DNA of 34,561 nt. Origin: Chloroflexota bacterium (lineage in GTDB: Bacteria > Chloroflexota > UBA11872). This document shows positions 18,036 to 26,189 of the stretch, one piece after another. The stretch covers positions 1-34,561 of the forward strand of contig JAPOXD010000001.1 in the NCBI GenBank assembly GCA_026707285.1, in the 5' to 3' direction. The notes below the pieces were generated by a model, which worked only from the letters and a program-made list of their open reading frames with translations, ran no database searches and was not told the DNA's origin. The position numbers and the translations under genes were made by a program. The first letter of the stretch is position 1, and each line of letters begins with the position of its first letter.

Positions 18036-19121
18036 TCACCTTGATTCGGTGTCACAAGATTGCGCCGCGCCGGCCTCGTGCCCGAGCACGTCGCCGAACG
18101 CGGCCATGAACGACTGCATGTCTTCCGCCGAGCCGATGGAGATCCGAAGCGCATTTGCGATGCGCGGATCGCCGGCAAAACGCCGGACCACAATGCGGCG
18201 ATCTTCAAGCTGGCGCTGAACATCCGCGGCATCGTACCCGTCAAGCTCGACAAATACGAAGTTTGCCTGCGACGGGTGGCACTTGAGCCCAAATCGCTCC
18301 TGCAGCGTCGCCGCCAGCACGTCGCGGCGGCGGCGAATCGCCGCCCAGTGACGCTCCGCCCAATCCAGGTCGCCCAGGGCCGCCAGCCCGGCGGCCTGCG
18401 CCAGGCGGCTGACGTTGTAAGAGTCCTTCACCCGCAGCAGCGCGTCGGCAAGCTCCGGGCTGGCCACCGCGTAGCCAAGCCGCAATCCCGCCAGGCCGAA
18501 GCTCTTGGAGAACGAGCGCGTGACGCACACGTTGTCGCACTCCCGCAGCAGGTCCACGTTGTCGCGGTCGGCGAACTCGACGTAGGCCTCGTCGATCACG
18601 AGCAGATTCACGCGGGACGCCAGCCACCGCAGGTCGTCGGCCCCGTAGTGCGTGCCGGCCGGGTTGTTCGGACTGGCGACGAAGGTGATCTTGCCCCGCG
18701 CGGCGGCCAGCTGGCGCACCGGCAGCGCAAAGTCGTCGCCCAGCGGCACCTCGCGGATGTCGCAGCCGCCGATCGCGGCCAGCACCGGGTAGAGCGAATA
18801 GCTCGGCGTCGCCGCAACGACCCGGTCGCCCGGATCGCACGCCACGCGGATCAGCAGGTTGAGCAGATCGTCCGAGCCGTTGCCGAATACCACCTGCTCG
18901 GGCTGGACGTTGTGGCGGCGCGCGGCGGCATCCCGCAGCTCGCGGCTGATCGGATCGGGGTAAAGCCGGATCGACGCGCGGGCGGCCGCCCGCAAAGCGG
19001 CCACCGCCGCCGGCGAGGCCTCGGGGCTCTCATTGGTATTGAGCTTGATCCACCCACCGTCACCAGGCTGCAAGCCCGGCACGTATCCGTGAATCGCCGC
19101 CATATCGCGTCGCAGCCGCAC
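18036..19121 (-). CDS. hisC: Histidinol-phosphate aminotransferase
   Basis: HisC (361 aa) is a class I/II PLP aminotransferase that makes histidinol phosphate from imidazole-acetol phosphate and glutamate. The N-terminal GYVPGLQPGDGGWIKLNTNESP is typical, and YPDPISRELRDAAARRH matches the substrate region. FASPNNPAG-like FVASPNNPAGTH is present. The PLP Lys lies in TRSFSKSFGLAGLRLGY. The C-terminal GSAEDMQSFMAAF also fits. The start is GTG at 19121 (ATG at 19103 also possible). It heads the minus-strand run into hppA/uppP/arg genes; some homologues act on other amino acids such as tyrosine, so the exact substrate is inferred. Confidence 0.93.
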   Translation of the reverse strand: MRLRRDMAAIHGYVPGLQPGDGGWIKLNTNESPEASPAAVAALRAAARASIRLYPDPISRELRDAAARRHNVQPEQVVFGNGSDDLLNLLIRVACDPGDRVVAATPSYSLYPVLAAIGGCDIREVPLGDDFALPVRQLAAARGKITFVASPNNPAGTHYGADDLRWLASRVNLLVIDEAYVEFADRDNVDLLRECDNVCVTRSFSKSFGLAGLRLGYAVASPELADALLRVKDSYNVSRLAQAAGLAALGDLDWAERHWAAIRRRRDVLAATLQERFGLKCHPSQANFVFVELDGYDAADVQRQLEDRRIVVRRFAGDPRIANALRISIGSAEDMQSFMAAFGDVLGHEAGAAQSCDTESR

Positions 19122-19416
19122 GAGTTAGCTCACCGAGAAAGAAATCAGGCCGCAGACACGGGCCCCGAACGCCCATGCTACCCATTCGCCACGCCCCCCA
19201 CCACGGGAGCGCCGCTTCCCCCTCCGTAGTACCCTCCGCCCCCTCCGTCATTCCCGCGAAGGCGGGAATCTACCCCTCCATCACCTCCGCGCCCCTCGCC
19301 GTCTGGCGCCAGCCCGCGCACCTCTGTCACTCCGAGCGCAGCGAGGAGTCTCAGATTCCCGACCCCGGCCGAGCCCGTCCTGAGCCCACCCCCGTTCGTG
19401 GTGAGCCCGTCGAACC
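19122..19416. repeat. Intergenic block of dispersed repeats
   Basis: The region contains a perfect hairpin at 19250-19269 (ATTCCCGC, loop GAAG, GCGGGAAT), a CACTCCGAGCGCAGCGAGGA repeat near 19328, and a 25-bp unit at 19393-19417. The 25-bp unit recurs exactly at 31081-31105. No gene is seen apart from the decayed methylase end that begins at 19417. The hisC promoter would lie at its left edge, but no clear hexamers were found. Confidence 0.6.
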
Positions 19417-19581
19417 ATGAACGGCCCCTGGCTTCCGGATCAGGCCCGAATCGGCGACCGCCGACCTCGACGCCGCTACCAAGAAGCCCAATTCGACGGC
19501 TACTGCCGCGCCAAAGACCTTATCCTTGCCTATATGAACGCCCGCGCCGCCGGAGACTCCGACGGGCTTATCGTCCGATAG
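19417..19581 (+). pseudogene. Remnant of the C-terminus of an Eco57I/type IIG-like DNA methylase (copy 1)
   Basis: A 54-codon frame ends RRRYQEAQFDGYCRAKDLILAYMNARAAG and then a stop. It resembles the extreme C-terminus of large Eco57I-type restriction-modification methylases (VRR-x-DE-x-x-FG-x-YRTKDLIL-x-YM). Nothing upstream continues the protein, so only a tail is left. The nucleotide stretch 19487-19530 aligns without gaps to 20502-20545 in the second remnant. The stop is 6 bp before the MNT gene start. Confidence 0.55.
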
Positions 19582-19587
19582 TCGCCC

Positions 19588-19932
19588 ATGCGCATCGTCG
19601 AAGACCCGCTCAACCGCGAAACCATCGAAGCCGTCACGCAATTGATCGTCGAGCGCTTCGAGCCGGAGCAAATCATCATGTTCGGCAGCTGCGCCCGCGG
19701 CGAAGTCGACGAGAACAGCGATCTGGACTTGCTGGTCGTTCTGCCCCACAACGATGAACAGGGCCACGAGGGCCACGGCATCCGCCTCGCCATCGCTGAG
19801 CGCTTTCTGCTCCCCGTCGACGTCCTCATCCGCTCGGCCGAGGTGGTCGCGAAATATCGCCAGGACCCCAACTCCATGATCAGCCGCATGCTGGAAAGCT
19901 CCGAAGTCCTCTATGACCGCCACGCCGCCTGA
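19588..19932 (+). CDS. MNT-type nucleotidyltransferase (antitoxin of MNT/HEPN module)
   Basis: The 114-aa minimal nucleotidyltransferase carries the pol-beta signature IIMFGSCARGEVDENSDLDL (G-S then R-G, then S-D-x-D), with metal-binding Asp residues intact. Further on, PVDVLIRSAEVVAK gives the third acidic strand. In characterised MNT/HEPN systems the MNT protein AMPylates or otherwise neutralises the HEPN RNase partner. The HEPN gene starts 20 bases before this stop, so they overlap and are coupled. Both neighbours outside the pair are methylase remnants, which places the module in a defence context. Confidence 0.85.
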   Translation: MRIVEDPLNRETIEAVTQLIVERFEPEQIIMFGSCARGEVDENSDLDLLVVLPHNDEQGHEGHGIRLAIAERFLLPVDVLIRSAEVVAKYRQDPNSMISRMLESSEVLYDRHAA

Positions 19933-20296
19933 ACAGGCCTGGTTCGCGAAGGCCGACGAAGACCTGGAGATTGCCCGCCGTGCGCTCGGACCCGACCGGC
20001 CGCTTCCGTCAGTGGCCTGCTTTCACGCTCAGCAATGCGCCGAGAAACACCTCAAGGGCTACCTGGTCGCTCACGACGTGCCGTTCCGGTTTGTCCACGA
20101 CCTCGGCTATCTCATCGGGCTATGTGCGGGAATCGACCCGGCATTTGCCAACCTCAGGCCGGCCGCCGTCACCCTGAATCCATACGTGGCGACTGCTCGC
20201 TATCCGTCGGAAGCCGCCCAGGAGCCGGACGTCGAAGCCGCCGAGAATGCCATCGCAGTCGCCGAACGAATCGCCGCCGCTGTGGCGCGGAAGTAG
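19913..20296 (+). CDS. HEPN domain protein (toxin-side partner of MNT)
   Basis: The 127-aa helical protein fits the HEPN family (PF05168 type): WFAKADEDLEIARRAL, then ACFHAQQCAEKHLKGYL, then FRFVHDLGYLIGLC, and the ARYPSEA segment near the C-terminus. In this subfamily the catalytic R-x(4-6)-H motif of HEPN RNases is not evident; the candidate R-F-V-H is only R-x2-H. It may therefore act as a substrate or adaptor rather than an RNase. It overlaps the MNT gene by 20 bp. Confidence 0.85.
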   Translation: MTATPPEQAWFAKADEDLEIARRALGPDRPLPSVACFHAQQCAEKHLKGYLVAHDVPFRFVHDLGYLIGLCAGIDPAFANLRPAAVTLNPYVATARYPSEAAQEPDVEAAENAIAVAERIAAAVARK

Positions 20297-20320
20297 CGCT
20301 TTGCCGGATCTGCCCCTGCC

Positions 20321-20575
20321 TTGCCATCGCCCTTCGCCCGCGTCTTCGGCTACGGCGGACCGCCCTTCATCTGGGACGAGGAAGAGCGCCGCCACCTCCG
20401 CGCCCGCCTCGACGCGCTCTACTTCCACCTCTACGGCCTCGACCGCGCCGACGCCGCCTACGTCCTCGACACCTTCCCCATCGTCCGCCGCGAAGACGAA
20501 TCCCAATTCGACGGCTGCTACCACACTAAAGACCGTATCCTTGCGCAAATCAACACGCTGGCCATTGCAGCGTAG
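20321..20575 (+). pseudogene. Remnant of the C-terminus of an Eco57I/type IIG-like DNA methylase (copy 2)
   Basis: An 84-codon frame reads [20 protein letters not shown], then [20 protein letters not shown], then [16 protein letters not shown] and [13 protein letters not shown]. The [22 protein letters not shown] and TKxxIL blocks are hallmarks of the C-terminal end of Eco57I-type and related N6-adenine methylases. The catalytic NPPY and SAM domains are absent, so this is a fragment. Its last ~15 codons match copy 1 on the other side of the MNT/HEPN pair. Confidence 0.7.
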
Positions 20576-20689
20576 GAAAGCACAGTGTCACCATGAAGCC
20601 TGACACTCTATCCAGTGCCCCGCTCCTTACTGACCGTCGAGCACCCTTCAACCGCTATCTCGAAATCTCAGCTCCGAAGCCTGGACATC

Positions 20690-22405
20690 ATGTCCAGCTT
20701 TGACCACAAGCGCCTTCACGACCGAATCATGGAGATCGATTCGGCACCAGATTCGTCGGCATTGTTCGCAAAGTGGCTGCACGCTCCCGATCACTTGCAA
20801 CTATTGCGCGAGAATGCCGCCGAGAGCGAGCTCATCATCTACGCTTCGGGTCCCTTCACCTTCATACATGCCGTCGTTATTCAAGAAGACAAGGCCAAAT
20901 TTCTCCACGCAGATGACTTGCTGGATTGGAGTGGAAACCCTTTTTCATCCTCCGCAGGATACATGTGGGATGCCCACGGCCATAATGTGACAATTCACCG
21001 AAGCAGCCCCCGTCTCGCCATCGGTCCAATCAATGATCCTCAGCAGCTCGTATTCGCCCGATCATTCGAAGGCCTACAGACGAATGACTCCACTTCATAC
21101 GAAATCCTACAAGAATATATTCATGTCACTGAGATTTTCTGGCGTCCTGAATTCAATTCGTATTGCCGATTCAACGAATACGGAGATTTCGACCATATAG
21201 TCTCATTAACACCCAAATCTGATATCGAAGAGGTGACTCTTGTGTCGTTCAAGCGAGATCAGCTGGAGCAGTATCTTGCCGCGTCAGAGTCCATCCTATT
21301 GCGCATGTTCGATTTCACATTGCACAGAAGAGGTCACTTCGACGGATGGCCTCCTGGACCTGAAGAAGTACTCAGCGAAGACGACCAGCTTGCATACCGT
21401 CGGAAAGTAGACCCGGCAAAGGCGGCTTATACTCGTGGTGTTCAGATTGTTCGGCCATCGCGATCCAGGAGCCGGATTCTCCAGTCGATACGAGATTGGT
21501 CGTTAGGAGTCTCTGAGAGCAAATGTGTTGAGTTCATTGCGTTCGACCGGCGCAATATGAGAGTGGCAACGATTTCGACTGACCCATCCGCTACGACAAA
21601 CTACTTTCAAGCTTCAAATAACGATCTTCCCTACGAAACCTCGCCCGTATTCTTTCACCCCGAAGTGTTGCTAAGATATAAGGCAGATCGTGAAAAATAT
21701 GTAGTCGACGAGGAATACCGAGTCATACAGTGCCGTGGCGCATGGGAGCTGCGTGCGATTGACGTAAACCAGGCGGGCCAGGTGCATACGTACATTTGCT
21801 ACCTACGTAATCTGCCTTATCGGGAACAGCTCTATTGGCAACGATTCAATGAAGAACCTAAAGCAGTGATCTCTGAGCGTGCATTCCTGAACGACTTCGA
21901 AGGTAGATGGGACACGAATGTCAGGCCGTTGGAGGCGGTGCTAGCCGTCGTCAAACGATGGACGACTGCTGGCGTGTGGTGGTGGAGGCTAGGCGCAGAG
22001 AACTTAATTGAGCGTGTCAACGTCCCCCGTAGCGGGAGCCGGGACGAGTGGGCGCGGGCATTTTCTGACCTATCGATCTTGGTCATTGAGGGGTTTCGGG
22101 TCGGAGCTCTCCGTACGAAACTTGCTGAAGCTGGCATACGGCACGAAAAGCAGGACGGGAGGAGCTTAGTCCTAATCGAGAAATTCCTGGTGAGGAACAA
22201 GGTGCTTGCGGATGCCAATCGACTGGTCGGACTACGCACCGTTCAGGCCATACGTTCAAAGGTATACTCGCATTTCGGCGGCAGAGAAGCGGAAGACCTA
22301 GCAGTTAGGGCCTTGAAGGATCATGGGGCGTATTCCGCGCACTTTGAAAGCGTATGCCGAGACGTCGTTGAAGAGCTTGAGCTAATCGAGAAAACCCTTT
22401 CGTAG
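20690..22405 (+). CDS. Large protein of unknown function with C-terminal HEPN-like R-x5-H motif (candidate defence protein)
   Basis: The product is 571 aa from ATG at 20690 (MSSFDHKRLHDRIMEID), or 596 aa from GTG at 20615; neither has a strong ribosome-binding site. No known domain was recognised in the first ~450 residues, which look alpha/beta with many aromatic strands (ELIIYASGPFTFIHAVVIQE, VEFIAFDRRNMRVATIS). The helical C-terminus reads VGLRTVQAIRSKVYSHFGGREAEDL when joined across its helix, and contains R-SKVYS-H (R-x5-H), the RNase motif spacing of HEPN domains. It ends with DVVEELELIEKTL. Base composition is visibly more AT-rich than the neighbours (e.g. 21100-21230), which suggests horizontal transfer. 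It is next to an MNT/HEPN pair and methylase remnants. HEPN assignment is by motif only. Confidence 0.6.
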   Translation: MSSFDHKRLHDRIMEIDSAPDSSALFAKWLHAPDHLQLLRENAAESELIIYASGPFTFIHAVVIQEDKAKFLHADDLLDWSGNPFSSSAGYMWDAHGHNVTIHRSSPRLAIGPINDPQQLVFARSFEGLQTNDSTSYEILQEYIHVTEIFWRPEFNSYCRFNEYGDFDHIVSLTPKSDIEEVTLVSFKRDQLEQYLAASESILLRMFDFTLHRRGHFDGWPPGPEEVLSEDDQLAYRRKVDPAKAAYTRGVQIVRPSRSRSRILQSIRDWSLGVSESKCVEFIAFDRRNMRVATISTDPSATTNYFQASNNDLPYETSPVFFHPEVLLRYKADREKYVVDEEYRVIQCRGAWELRAIDVNQAGQVHTYICYLRNLPYREQLYWQRFNEEPKAVISERAFLNDFEGRWDTNVRPLEAVLAVVKRWTTAGVWWWRLGAENLIERVNVPRSGSRDEWARAFSDLSILVIEGFRVGALRTKLAEAGIRHEKQDGRSLVLIEKFLVRNKVLADANRLVGLRTVQAIRSKVYSHFGGREAEDLAVRALKDHGAYSAHFESVCRDVVEELELIEKTLS

Positions 22406-22666
22406 GAGTCAGTGCAGAGGGCCTGACCGCGCTTAGCCTGGGAGCGCTTGGATCACACCGGCCTCACATGTCAACTGTCCCGCGCACTCAACGCACGCGG
22501 CTGAGGCGCCCTATCGGTTGCCCAGGCGGCGCGCAGCCTGGGAGATTCAGAGTCTACCGATGCGTCGGGGCATGTTCCCCCTTATCCTCACCTTCTCCCG
22601 CCTGGGGAGAAGGGACCGAAAGGGCGCCCGGCGGTAGAGGCCAGCGCCGCTCGTTAGACTCGCGGC
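22406..22666. repeat. Intergenic region with a dispersed hairpin repeat
   Basis: A perfect 9-bp stem lies at 22591-22613 (CCTTCTCCC, loop GCCTG, GGGAGAAGG), within a longer dispersed-type repeat ('cctcaccttctcccgcct'). It sits between two plus-strand genes and could terminate the unknown protein's transcript. No gene is seen. Confidence 0.5.
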
Positions 22667-23419
22667 ATGGCGATTCGGGGTGTGCTGTTCGATCTGGGCG
22701 ATACCTTGGTCACGCAGGAGCCCTTGGTCGGGTCTCCCAGCAACCGGGAGGGCGCGGCGCAGGTGGCCGAGGCGCTGGGGCGGCTGACGGAGGTCGCGCC
22801 GACCGCCGAGCAGCTGACCGACCCGCTGGGCGAGACCCTGCAAGAGGCACTGATCGAGTCCTATCAGGGCGAGTGCGCCGTTCCGGACGCGCGGCGGGCC
22901 TTCCTGGAAGTCCTCGACCGCTTTGACATCGAGCCGCCGTCCGAACTCATCGACCTGCTGCTGCCGTTGTACTTCGGGCCGCACTACGCGCGGATGACCG
23001 TCGATCCGCTCGCCGTCCGCACGCTGGAGCTGCTGCGACGCGCCGGCGTGCGCACGGCCATCGTGGGCAACGTGATCCATGGCGAAGAGTTGCTGGTCGA
23101 GCGCCTGCGCGCGTTCGATCTGCTGCGGCTGGTGGACGCGCTGGTGCTGAGCACCGAGTCCGGCTGGATGAAGCCGCATCCCGTGGCCTACCGCGAGGCG
23201 CTGCGCCGGCTCGACGTCCCGGCTATCGACGCGGTCATGGTGGGCGACGACCTGGAAATCGACGTGCGCGCGCCGCAGGCGCTCGGGCTGCGGGCCATTT
23301 GGCTGCGCCGCGACACCGCGCCCGGACTCGGGTCGGTGACGCCCGACGCAATCATCGACGACCTGGGAGGCCTGATCCCGGCCATCGCGGAATTGGACGC
23401 TTCCCAGACGCCGACGTAA
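22667..23419 (+). CDS. HAD superfamily hydrolase with altered motif I
   Basis: The 250-aa HAD-IA protein has motif I VLFDLGDTLV, in which the nucleophile Asp is present but the +2 acid is Gly (D-L-G-D-T) rather than Asp. The +2 Asp is the acid/base in most phosphatases, so a non-phosphatase or altered activity is possible. Motif II is AIVGN (residues about 127-131). Motif III is the MKPHP Lys, and motif IV is MVGDDLEIDVRAPQALG with both Asp residues. A helical cap lies between motifs I and II. The substrate is unknown. It has no operon partner; the IS110 element follows. Confidence 0.82.
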   Translation: MAIRGVLFDLGDTLVTQEPLVGSPSNREGAAQVAEALGRLTEVAPTAEQLTDPLGETLQEALIESYQGECAVPDARRAFLEVLDRFDIEPPSELIDLLLPLYFGPHYARMTVDPLAVRTLELLRRAGVRTAIVGNVIHGEELLVERLRAFDLLRLVDALVLSTESGWMKPHPVAYREALRRLDVPAIDAVMVGDDLEIDVRAPQALGLRAIWLRRDTAPGLGSVTPDAIIDDLGGLIPAIAELDASQTPT

Positions 23420-23505: not shown

Positions 23506-24567
23506 CTATGTCAAGGCGAAGGACGTCCGGCCGCTGGCGAGGTCCCCTTTGATGGTGCGGAAGATCGAGCGGGCCAGGTGCCGCTTGAGAGCTCGCACGG
23601 CCTCGCGGCGACTTTTGCCCTCCCGCAGCCGGCGCTCGACATAGCGCTGGCCCGCGCTGCCCGGCATCCGCACCTGGGTCACCGCGATGCGGTGCAGCGC
23701 CACATTCAGCTGGCGGTTGCCCCGCCGGTCCAGCCGGTGCCGCACCCGCGTTCCGCTCGACGCCTCGCGCGGCGCCACGCCGCAGAACCGCGCGTAGCTC
23801 GCCTCTCGCCCAAAGTGCGCCGGGTCGCCCGTCTCGGCCAGCAGCCGCGCCGCCGTGAGCGCCTGGCAGCCCGGGCGGTCGGTCAGCGACGTGCCCACCC
23901 GCGCCACCAGCGCGGTGAGCTCCTGGGTCCGCTCCGCCACCTCCGCATGCAGCTGCAGCAGCCGCTGCGCCAGGCGCTGCGCCAGCACCCGCCGCAGCCG
24001 TTGCACGGGGTCAGGGTCGGTCAGCGGCAGTGCCAGCACCCGCTGCGCTCCCACCGGGCGCCCCAGCGCGCCCACCGCCGCACTCACCTCCGCCCCGATC
24101 GCCCGCACGCTCGCCCGTAACTGATTGATCAGCCGCGTCCGCTCCTGCACCAGGGCGTCCCGCTCATCCGCTAACAGCCGCAGCATGGTCGCTCCGTCCT
24201 CCGGTCGCGCCACGGGACGGTCGGGCTCGCGCTGCAGCGCCCGCGCCGCCGCCAGCGCGTCCTGCGCATCGCTCTTGTCCCGCCGCCCGTCGTGGCGGCG
24301 CTCCCGCGCCGTCACCCAGCCCGGGATCTCGTGCACCTGCTCACCCGCCCGTTGTAGCCGCCGCGTCAACTCCCGCCCATGGCCGCCGGCTCCTTCGACT
24401 GCCCAGGCCCGCGGCCCCGGCGCCCCCGCCGCCCACCGCTGTACCTGCTGCTGCCCTGCGACCGTGTTCGGCACGGTGCGGTCGCCCTGCACCCGCCCCA
24501 GCGCATCCACCCGCACCGCCGTCAGCGTCCGCGCATGGCAATCCACCCCCACCACCCAGCTATCCAT
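23506..24567 (-). CDS. IS110-family transposase
   Basis: This 353-aa recombinase uses DEDD chemistry in a RuvC-like domain plus a serine nucleophile. N-terminal VVGVDCHARTLTAV gives the first Asp and AVEGAGGHGRELTRRL the Glu. GRRDKSDAQDALAAARAL holds the two later Asp residues. The middle is a coiled-coil-rich helical part. C-terminal PGCQALTAARLLAETGDPAHF and YARFCGVAPREASSGTRV with HRLDRRGNRQLNVALHRIA form the Transposase_20 domain with the Ser. The ATG start has GGAGGAGG upstream; a frame running to 25446 is only antisense readthrough of the next gene. It appears intact. IS110 elements lack terminal inverted repeats and, in studied cases, use a bridge RNA from the non-coding end. Confidence 0.95.
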   Translation of the reverse strand: MDSWVVGVDCHARTLTAVRVDALGRVQGDRTVPNTVAGQQQVQRWAAGAPGPRAWAVEGAGGHGRELTRRLQRAGEQVHEIPGWVTARERRHDGRRDKSDAQDALAAARALQREPDRPVARPEDGATMLRLLADERDALVQERTRLINQLRASVRAIGAEVSAAVGALGRPVGAQRVLALPLTDPDPVQRLRRVLAQRLAQRLLQLHAEVAERTQELTALVARVGTSLTDRPGCQALTAARLLAETGDPAHFGREASYARFCGVAPREASSGTRVRHRLDRRGNRQLNVALHRIAVTQVRMPGSAGQRYVERRLREGKSRREAVRALKRHLARSIFRTIKGDLASGRTSFALT

Positions 24568-24670
24568 CGCGTCCTCCTCCGCGCTACCCTCACCCGGCGG
24601 CGTGGCGGACAATCCTGTGTGGAGTGGCCTTGCGCCACGATCTCCTATCAAGTCACACCCGCCGCCCTGA
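24568..24670 (-). ncRNA. Structured leader of the IS110 element, candidate bridge RNA region
   Basis: On the minus strand the ~100 bases before the transposase ATG contain a perfect hairpin GTGGC-GCAAG-GCCAC (about 24627-24641) and shorter paired segments (GGATTGTCC). This is followed by a C/G-rich leader. In IS110-group elements the bridge RNA is encoded upstream of the transposase. The space here is short for a typical 150-250-nt RNA, so the RNA could extend left to ~24700 or start within dispersed repeats. Supported only by position and one hairpin. Confidence 0.3.
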
Positions 24671-24851
24671 GCATTGCCCGGCGGGGGGACACTTCGAACG
24701 CCAGGCCTGCCTACCGGCAGCCACGGAATGACTGAGTCACCCCCGCCGAATGCTCGGGACCCTAGCAAGCCCCGCCCGCAGCGTGGACACACAGGAATGA
24801 CAGGAAAGTGGCGCTTGGAAGGACAGAAACTGCCGCCCGGACTCCGACGGC
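24671..24851. repeat. Repeat-rich intergenic sequence beside the IS110 element
   Basis: It contains CTGCCTACCGGCAG (a short palindrome), 'CGGAATGACTGAG' and 'AGGAATGACAGG' segments that echo the GGAATGACAG tail of the 21-bp dispersed repeat. No gene was found. Confidence 0.45.
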
Positions 24852-26189
24852 TTAGCGCGGGAGCCAGGCGTCGTCGAGGACCTCCTCGGTCAGCCGCTTG
24901 CCCAGCAGATAGGTCGTGTTGTCGGGATACCAGAGCACCTGTTCCCCGGCGTAGTCGGTGAAGCTGCCGTAGAGGGGCATGCCGCCTCCGCGACCGGTCA
25001 CCGAGTGGACGGCGTACTCGTTGTCGGCGAGCAGGTGGGGCCGGCCGAACACCAGCGGCTGGCCGCCGGGGTTGTCGATCTCTCGACCGACGCTGACGCA
25101 GACCGGCCGCCGCGCCTTGCCGTCGCCGGGTCCGTCGGCCCCATGCGCGGTGCCGTCGTTGTTGTGGAAGAACAGCAGGAATCGTCCGTCGCGCAGCTTG
25201 TGCAGCGGGCAAGGCGACGAGGGATGCGGAATGGGCGGTCCGCCGGGCTGAAACCGCAGCGGCGCTGCCTCGGACCACGACTCGCCGTAGTCCTCGGACA
25301 CCGAATACCAGATCCAGCCGGTCATAGTACGCATCACGGCCAGGATGCGGCCGTCGGAGAGGTTCTGGATCGACGGCTCCATGGCGCAGCTGATGCGCGG
25401 GTCGCGCGGATGCTGCACCTGGATGCCGTGCTCGGCGTCCGGCCAAGTCGTCACCACCAGGTCCGCCGGGTCGTCCACCGTCATCACGTTGTCGAATCGG
25501 AGGAACCAGCCCTCGTGATGGCGGGCGTTGAAGCCGATTTCCGGCGTCACCGTCTCGAATTGACGCTGATAGTGGTTGGAGGCCCAGCGCGTCATCGGGC
25601 AGATCACCTGGCCGCGCCGGTTGACGATGGGCGCCTGCCAGCCGGTCGGCACCCAGCTGCTGAGCATGGCCGGGTCGGGATCGTCGATGGCCCCGCGGCC
25701 GATGACCGTGTCGTAGCGCTCGCCCCAGGTGACGCCGTCGTCGTCCGACACGCGCCAGGACAGCACCCCGGTCATCCCGCGGTCGAAGTCCACCGGCCCG
25801 GTGTTGCGGTGATAGAAGAGCCAGACGCGACCGCTATGCGGCACCACCACCGGCACCGACCACACCGGCACCTTGCCGGAGTCGTCCGGCGGCGCCTCGA
25901 CCACCGTGGGGCGGCTCCAGGTGCGCCCGCGGTCCTCGCTGCGGGCCGTCACTATCCGCACGTTCACCCCGTGGAAGTGGTCCCCGGCCTGCGTCCAGGT
26001 GGCCAGGAATGCGCCCGTGGTCGTGACCGTGACGATGAAGTGGGTGTTGCCGTTGTCCCACGGCCCGTCCGGCCGCGGCCCGGTGTCGTGCTCGGGAGTG
26101 TCGTCGTCGGCCGGCACGTAGACGACGTAGTCGGGATTGGTGCGGAGGGCGTCGCGCCAGCGAGCGGCGGCGGTGGATTTCGGAGGCAT
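24852..26189 (-). CDS. Asp-box (sialidase-like beta-propeller) protein, cytoplasmic
   Basis: The 445-aa protein has three clear Asp-boxes (S-x-D-x-G-x-[TS]-W): SEDRGRTW, SDDDGVTW and SEDYGESW. These mark a six-bladed sialidase-like propeller. A catalytic Arg triad cannot be assigned with confidence, so exo-sialidase activity is not assured; many such proteins act on other sugar acids. The start is ATG at 26189 with GAGGG upstream; an upstream TTG (26204) is possible. No signal peptide is seen, so it acts inside the cell. It is divergent from the HAD gene at 26333, with a LacI-type operator in the shared spacer. Confidence 0.8.
   Translation of the reverse strand: MPPKSTAAARWRDALRTNPDYVVYVPADDDTPEHDTGPRPDGPWDNGNTHFIVTVTTTGAFLATWTQAGDHFHGVNVRIVTARSEDRGRTWSRPTVVEAPPDDSGKVPVWSVPVVVPHSGRVWLFYHRNTGPVDFDRGMTGVLSWRVSDDDGVTWGERYDTVIGRGAIDDPDPAMLSSWVPTGWQAPIVNRRGQVICPMTRWASNHYQRQFETVTPEIGFNARHHEGWFLRFDNVMTVDDPADLVVTTWPDAEHGIQVQHPRDPRISCAMEPSIQNLSDGRILAVMRTMTGWIWYSVSEDYGESWSEAAPLRFQPGGPPIPHPSSPCPLHKLRDGRFLLFFHNNDGTAHGADGPGDGKARRPVCVSVGREIDNPGGQPLVFGRPHLLADNEYAVHSVTGRGGGMPLYGSFTDYAGEQVLWYPDNTTYLLGKRLTEEVLDDAWLPR

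Follow-up and report, generated by a model that had tools for sequence, protein, structure and literature searches.

HEPN Domains in Single-Gene Defense

Tha, an anti-phage protein of 301 amino acids from a Staphylococcus aureus prophage, carries a C-terminal HEPN RNase domain with an R-x4-H motif and acts as a non-specific RNase that is activated by phage tail proteins, with an abortive-type outcome (PMC11087260). In ApeA and AbiJ, variable N-terminal domains are fused to HEPN, according to a survey of the superfamily (PMC3710099), and BxaP, a DUF4145 protein, is a single-gene defense protein containing a HEPN-superfamily domain (PMC10799925). A gene that seems to encode a protein of comparable design is located in a 34,561-nt stretch of a Chloroflexota genome (assembly GCA_026707285.1, contig JAPOXD010000001.1, positions 1–34,561; hereafter, the window).

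The Target Gene and Its Family

The target gene (20690–22405, +) encodes, from the ATG at 20690, a protein of 571 amino acids composed of an N-terminal domain resembling the C-terminal domain of Avs3, a conserved middle domain, and a C-terminal HEPN-like domain. A longer open reading frame with a GTG start (20615–22405, 596 amino acids) is also present, and the initial annotation had described a protein of about 571–596 residues ending in a helical domain with R-SKVYS-H; the open reading frame and the motif, at residues 522–528, are as described, and the shorter product is preferred because relatives align from the ATG at 20690 and M1 is nearly invariant among them. With the target as a single query sequence, Pfam, NCBIfam, PADLOC, and the PDB yielded no matches, the scanning of 31 family members returned scattered sub-threshold matches only, and Foldseek alone found nothing significant for the models in the PDB and BFVD. 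The AlphaFold2 model of the full-length target, obtained from a 31-sequence alignment, has a pLDDT of 85.9 and a pTM of 0.66.

Relatives occur in Pseudomonas and Rhodococcus (tblastn, plasmids), three more were present, besides the window's own copy, among 301 sampled genomes of the phylum, and one contig scan of genomes provided 40 loci from several phyla and groups, including Proteobacteria, Nitrospirota, Acidobacteriota, Planctomycetes, Chloroflexi, Rhodothermaceae, and others. The alignment comprises 38 members, full-length or nearly so, or 37 when the truncated copy L044 is left out; these 37 sequences have pairwise identities of 17–94% and share 15 invariant columns over the whole protein. 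No mention of the accessions of four relatives was found in the literature searched. The family, which has no counterpart in Pfam, NCBIfam, or PADLOC, is undescribed and unnamed, widespread, and horizontally mobile.

Some members have particular settings. One lies in a 22-kb phage-like contig (L009:10001-11719), between primase/helicase and RuvC-like genes (named by eye), a placement that is expected for a prophage-borne defense gene. Copies broken by frameshifts or an insertion (L010:3040-4746, L033:10001-11676, and L026:10001-12708) were also observed; broken copies are common among defense genes. A close relative of the target and a remote paralogue of 641 amino acids (L039:9071-10996, −), the latter containing the middle and C-terminal domains, are arranged tail to tail, and this pair is possibly a two-gene version of the system. 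Moreover, in two Rhodobacterales, an uncharacterized gene of 589 amino acids begins about 23 bp past the target's relative (L034:11721-13487 and L038:11722-13488), and its L034 copy has no PADLOC match.

The C-Terminal HEPN-Like Domain

In the predicted structure, residues 428–571 (21971–22402, +) form a HEPN-like helical domain, which contains the predicted active-site pair in R522-SKVYS-H528 (22253–22273, +). Both residues are kept in 37 of the 38 aligned members, the exception being the truncated L044, and are the sole invariant columns of the domain across the 37 sequences, which supports the reading of this motif as HEPN-type in the initial annotation. Their spacing is mostly x5, with x4 once (L039) and x6 once (L036), a range allowed in HEPN domains, and remote relatives retain the motif at the equivalent place, namely the 641-amino-acid L039 paralogue as R-x6-H and a viral-contig protein (L050/L051) as R-x4-H. 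Since each relative has between one and five R-x4-6-H strings in its last 180 residues, a lone string of this kind is not above chance; nevertheless, the motif signal exceeds chance because R522 and H528 are exclusively invariant in the C-terminal domain. The residue after the motif Arg is polar in 31 of 31 members, being Ser, Asn, or Thr and mostly Ser, and the HEPN survey reports that the polar residue at this position is mostly Asn, Asp, or His (PMC3710099).

When the C-terminal 180 residues were modelled alone (pLDDT 89.6), HEPN structures took most of the top ranks in VIA-align, as the initial annotation had anticipated, with HepT 6m6u at Z 5.8, 2hsb and 6m6w at 5.7, and 5yep at 5.6, together with 7ae6 (5.5), 7ae9 and 7bxo (5.3), and 7ae8 (5.2), in a table where unrelated bundles have Z scores of 4–5.7 (1xwo 5.7, 4dzu 5.5). 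In the whole model, residues 428–569 match HepT 6m6u with a Z of 4.7 and the HEPN protein 1wwp with a Z of 4.2. Because Z scores of 5–6 are modest for helical bundles, the HEPN call leans on the fold and the motif together. Profile comparison of the domain with the window's own HEPN family (the PF05168 protein), using four close sequences, found nothing. The prediction of a HEPN-like domain of the RNase type is supported by these data.

Alternatively, the HEPN-like domain could be a non-enzymatic module that binds RNA or protein, the target then working through a different mechanism, either in defense or in ordinary regulation. Non-catalytic HEPN families do exist (PMC3710099), and conservation in the target family is highest in the middle domain; however, families of that kind typically lose the Arg or the His, while here both residues, and they alone, are invariant in the domain, and the neighborhood of the relatives is one of defense. 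Thus, a catalytic role is the preferred reading and a purely binding role seems unlikely.

The N-Terminal and Middle Domains

The initial annotation had recognized no N-terminal domain. This holds for sequence-level matches, but structure and profile comparisons (VIA-align and hhalign) indicate that residues 10–259 (20717–21466, +) resemble the C-terminal domain of Avs3. VIA-align matches this region to residues 1838–2077 of Avs3 (8dgc) with a Z of 11.9, an rmsd of 3.5, and 183 aligned positions, far above the other rows for the whole model. In hhalign, the N-terminal domain compared with Avs3 C-termini, represented by the last 300 residues of 10 Avs3 proteins taken from genomes and plasmids, gives a score of 33.8 (E 6e-4, 178 columns), whereas reversed, column-shuffled, and other-domain controls give 12–17. 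This match requires the broadest alignment, a narrower N-terminal alignment scoring 14.2 against Avs3, with no signal, and Avs3b used as a probe gave no match. Since both approaches point to one and the same region, the relationship of the N-terminal domain to the Avs3 C-terminal domain is likely, though remote, and the domain is a candidate sensor. Profile searches with the target and the 31 members detected no STAND ATPase, N-terminal Cap4 nuclease, or TPR sensor.

The middle α/β domain (residues 276–400; 21515–21889, +) shows the strongest conservation in the family alignment, with F322, V326, Y337, C348, W352, P376, E379, W383, and N387 being invariant.

Gene Neighborhoods of the Relatives

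The relatives are found in defense contexts, in agreement with the setting that the initial annotation had proposed for the target. The 105 proteins encoded within 3 kb of relatives account for 302 PADLOC families, vs. 30 for 105 others from the same genomes, drawn from stretches by contig number and with total residues differing somewhat between the two sets, so that the enrichment over proteins of the same genomes is about tenfold. Distal genes in the relatives' own loci account for 265 PADLOC families and are unclean as a control because the islands reach beyond 6 kb; stretches elsewhere were, therefore, used. Neighbors confirmed singly include GajA and GajB (L021, Pseudomonas benzenivorans), Avs2 (L014), HEC-03B (L019), HerA (L003), a type IIG restriction-modification (RM) protein (L011), and an ApeA-like protein (L026), while SIR2 and an AbiLi/PDC-M38A-like ATPase accompany the relative in L002. 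Pfam matches among neighbors comprise HsdR-type SWI2/SNF2, N6 methylases, AbiEii, EcoRII, and YhcG. DUF4238 proteins are encoded by 2 of the 105 neighbors, in unrelated genomes (L008:8810-9925 and L030:3510-4514), and the gene at L036:8148-8861 resembles them by eye.

In Pseudomonas aeruginosa, the relative adjoins a CBASS locus with SAVED, nucleotidyltransferase, ThiF, and Mov34 genes. The target could, thus, be an accessory effector of nearby signaling systems such as CBASS, in which the middle domain, rich in invariant polar residues, would bind a second messenger and activate the HEPN domain in the manner of Csm6/CARF-HEPN proteins. Nevertheless, the systems nearby vary by locus (Gabija, Avs2, RM, SIR2), no cyclase adjoins the target in the window, and the 31 members yielded a single CARF/SAVED match, at an E of 0.03, which makes such a dependence improbable. 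The preferred reading is that of an autonomous protein: unrelated loci have no partner gene in common and, therefore, the target probably acts alone, as a single-gene system.

A Defense Hotspot and the Arrival of the Target

The target lies in a hotspot whose borders, a hisC-like aminotransferase gene on the left (18036–19121, −) and a HAD hydrolase gene on the right (22667–23419, +; PF00702), are defined by synteny within the genus. The order across 18036–23419 is hisC, MNT/HEPN, type IIG RM, variable cargo, and HAD. Each of the six genomes available for the genus has this hotspot, and the five besides that of the window lack the target; the hisC–HAD distance is 3.0–12.8 kb where one contig spans it, a contig break falling inside the interval in G010. 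Congeners contain an MNT/HEPN pair (in L090, MNT alone was called), then a type IIG-like restriction-methylase, intact with 1391–1571 amino acids, and then variable cargo, including an OLD/PD-T4-4-like ATPase, an IS110 transposase, and a PDC-S35-like protein. In the window, the genes for the MNT nucleotidyltransferase (19588–19932, +; PF01909, 5e-12), which is also at the hotspot in congeners, and its paired HEPN protein (19913–20296, +; PF05168, 9e-21) precede a remnant of the restriction-methylase, comprising its last ~78 amino acids (20321–20575, +; 81% identity to L088), and the target fills the cargo slot.

Homology to the congeners ends at ~20563 and returns at ~22515–22646 (blastn, L088–L093), and these breaks, together with the GC content, delimit an acquired segment of approximately 20564–22514. 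The target has a GC content of 51.6%, vs. 68% for the window, and is its lowest 1.7-kb stretch, in line with the AT-richness relative to its neighbors pointed out in the initial annotation. Moreover, it is missing from 18 of 18 other genomes of the taxonomic family. The position in the cargo slot, the homology breaks, and the absence from related genomes indicate a recent single-gene arrival; the target is, thus, a recent acquisition that moved as a single-gene cassette. The same colinear MNT/HEPN–remnant block exists in G051, with a REP-associated transposase (by eye) in the slot, and the decay of the RM gene to its 3′ end appears alike in G051 and the window.

Other traces are visible around the hotspot. 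Another short methylase remnant, again C-terminal (19471–19587), just upstream of the MNT gene, has 74–81% DNA identity to the 3′ end of the RM gene in congeners, short REP-like intergenic repeats at 19315–19424 recur at several places in the congeners' hotspot loci, and an IS110-family transposase (23506–25446, −; PF01548 and PF02371) is encoded, in a longer open frame, just past the HAD border.

The MNT/HEPN pair and the methylase remnant upstream, both reported by the initial annotation, are real but are fixed residents of the hotspot and not partners of the target. The position of the pair just upstream could suggest a three-gene toxin–antitoxin locus in which the target, as a HEPN toxin, is restrained by the neighboring MNT. 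However, the pair occupies the same position in congeners lacking the target, for which reason it is not regarded as the target's partner, and NTP_transf_2 is matched by at most one of the 105 neighbors of relatives. Such a toxin–antitoxin arrangement is very improbable.

Proposed Mechanism

The target probably encodes an RNase that brings about abortive infection as a single-gene system and carries its own Avs3-type domain. In this mechanism, the C-terminal HEPN-like domain would act as the RNase, through an active site that is built from R522 and H528 and probably spans a homodimer, and would be kept inactive by the rest of the protein in uninfected cells. The N-terminal Avs3-type and middle domains may sense a ligand specific to infection, a phage protein being the most likely one, and sensing could then release the RNase to cut both cellular and phage RNA, so that the infection would be halted at the expense of the cell. 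A more specific version, in which a stand-alone HEPN RNase recognizes a phage protein directly via an Avs3-type C-terminal domain, with neither STAND ATPase nor repeat sensor, is a rather doubtful proposition.

The target family would add a new, unnamed, and mobile member to the single-gene HEPN defense proteins. Moreover, the Avs3 link suggests a reusable module, which could be coupled to a STAND nuclease in some proteins and directly to an RNase in others, and raises the testable question of which role this domain has in Avs3 and whether the target recognizes the same phage protein.

Comparison with Known Systems

Like ApeA, the target combines a large N-terminal region with a HEPN domain bearing the R/H motif, is a single gene, and is found in defense islands. 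The initial annotation had likened it to ApeA-like single-gene abortive-infection HEPN effectors; an effector of this type is supported, but the resemblance to ApeA concerns the way of working and not membership, since ApeA models (PADLOC Cas13-ApeA and PDC-S58; Pfam) match none of the 31 members at E ≤ 1. Similarly, hhalign between the target family and the ApeA-like protein of L026 gives a score of 15, with no profile similarity. With BxaP, the target shares the status of single-gene defense candidate and a domain of the HEPN-superfamily type, although membership of DUF4145 was rejected, the Pfam model matching 0 of 31 members.

The HEPN fold, predicted for the target with HepT as the top structural match, and the R/H pair are common to the target and to the HepT of MntA-HepT or HEPN-MNT pairs; however, in the target, the HEPN domain is fused to two further domains and has no conserved MNT antitoxin partner. 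Avs3 probably shares with the target the domain seen at 1838–2077 of 8dgc, whereas the target, about a quarter of the size of Avs3, has no STAND ATPase, Cap4 nuclease, or TPR array and has a predicted HEPN effector instead.

In function, the target is most likely closest to Tha, going by the description of the latter, as both are single proteins with a C-terminal HEPN domain and its R/H motif. Nevertheless, Tha is prophage-encoded and has 301 amino acids, and its N-terminal part resisted modelling, whereas the target has 571 amino acids and N-terminal and middle domains that are modelled confidently.
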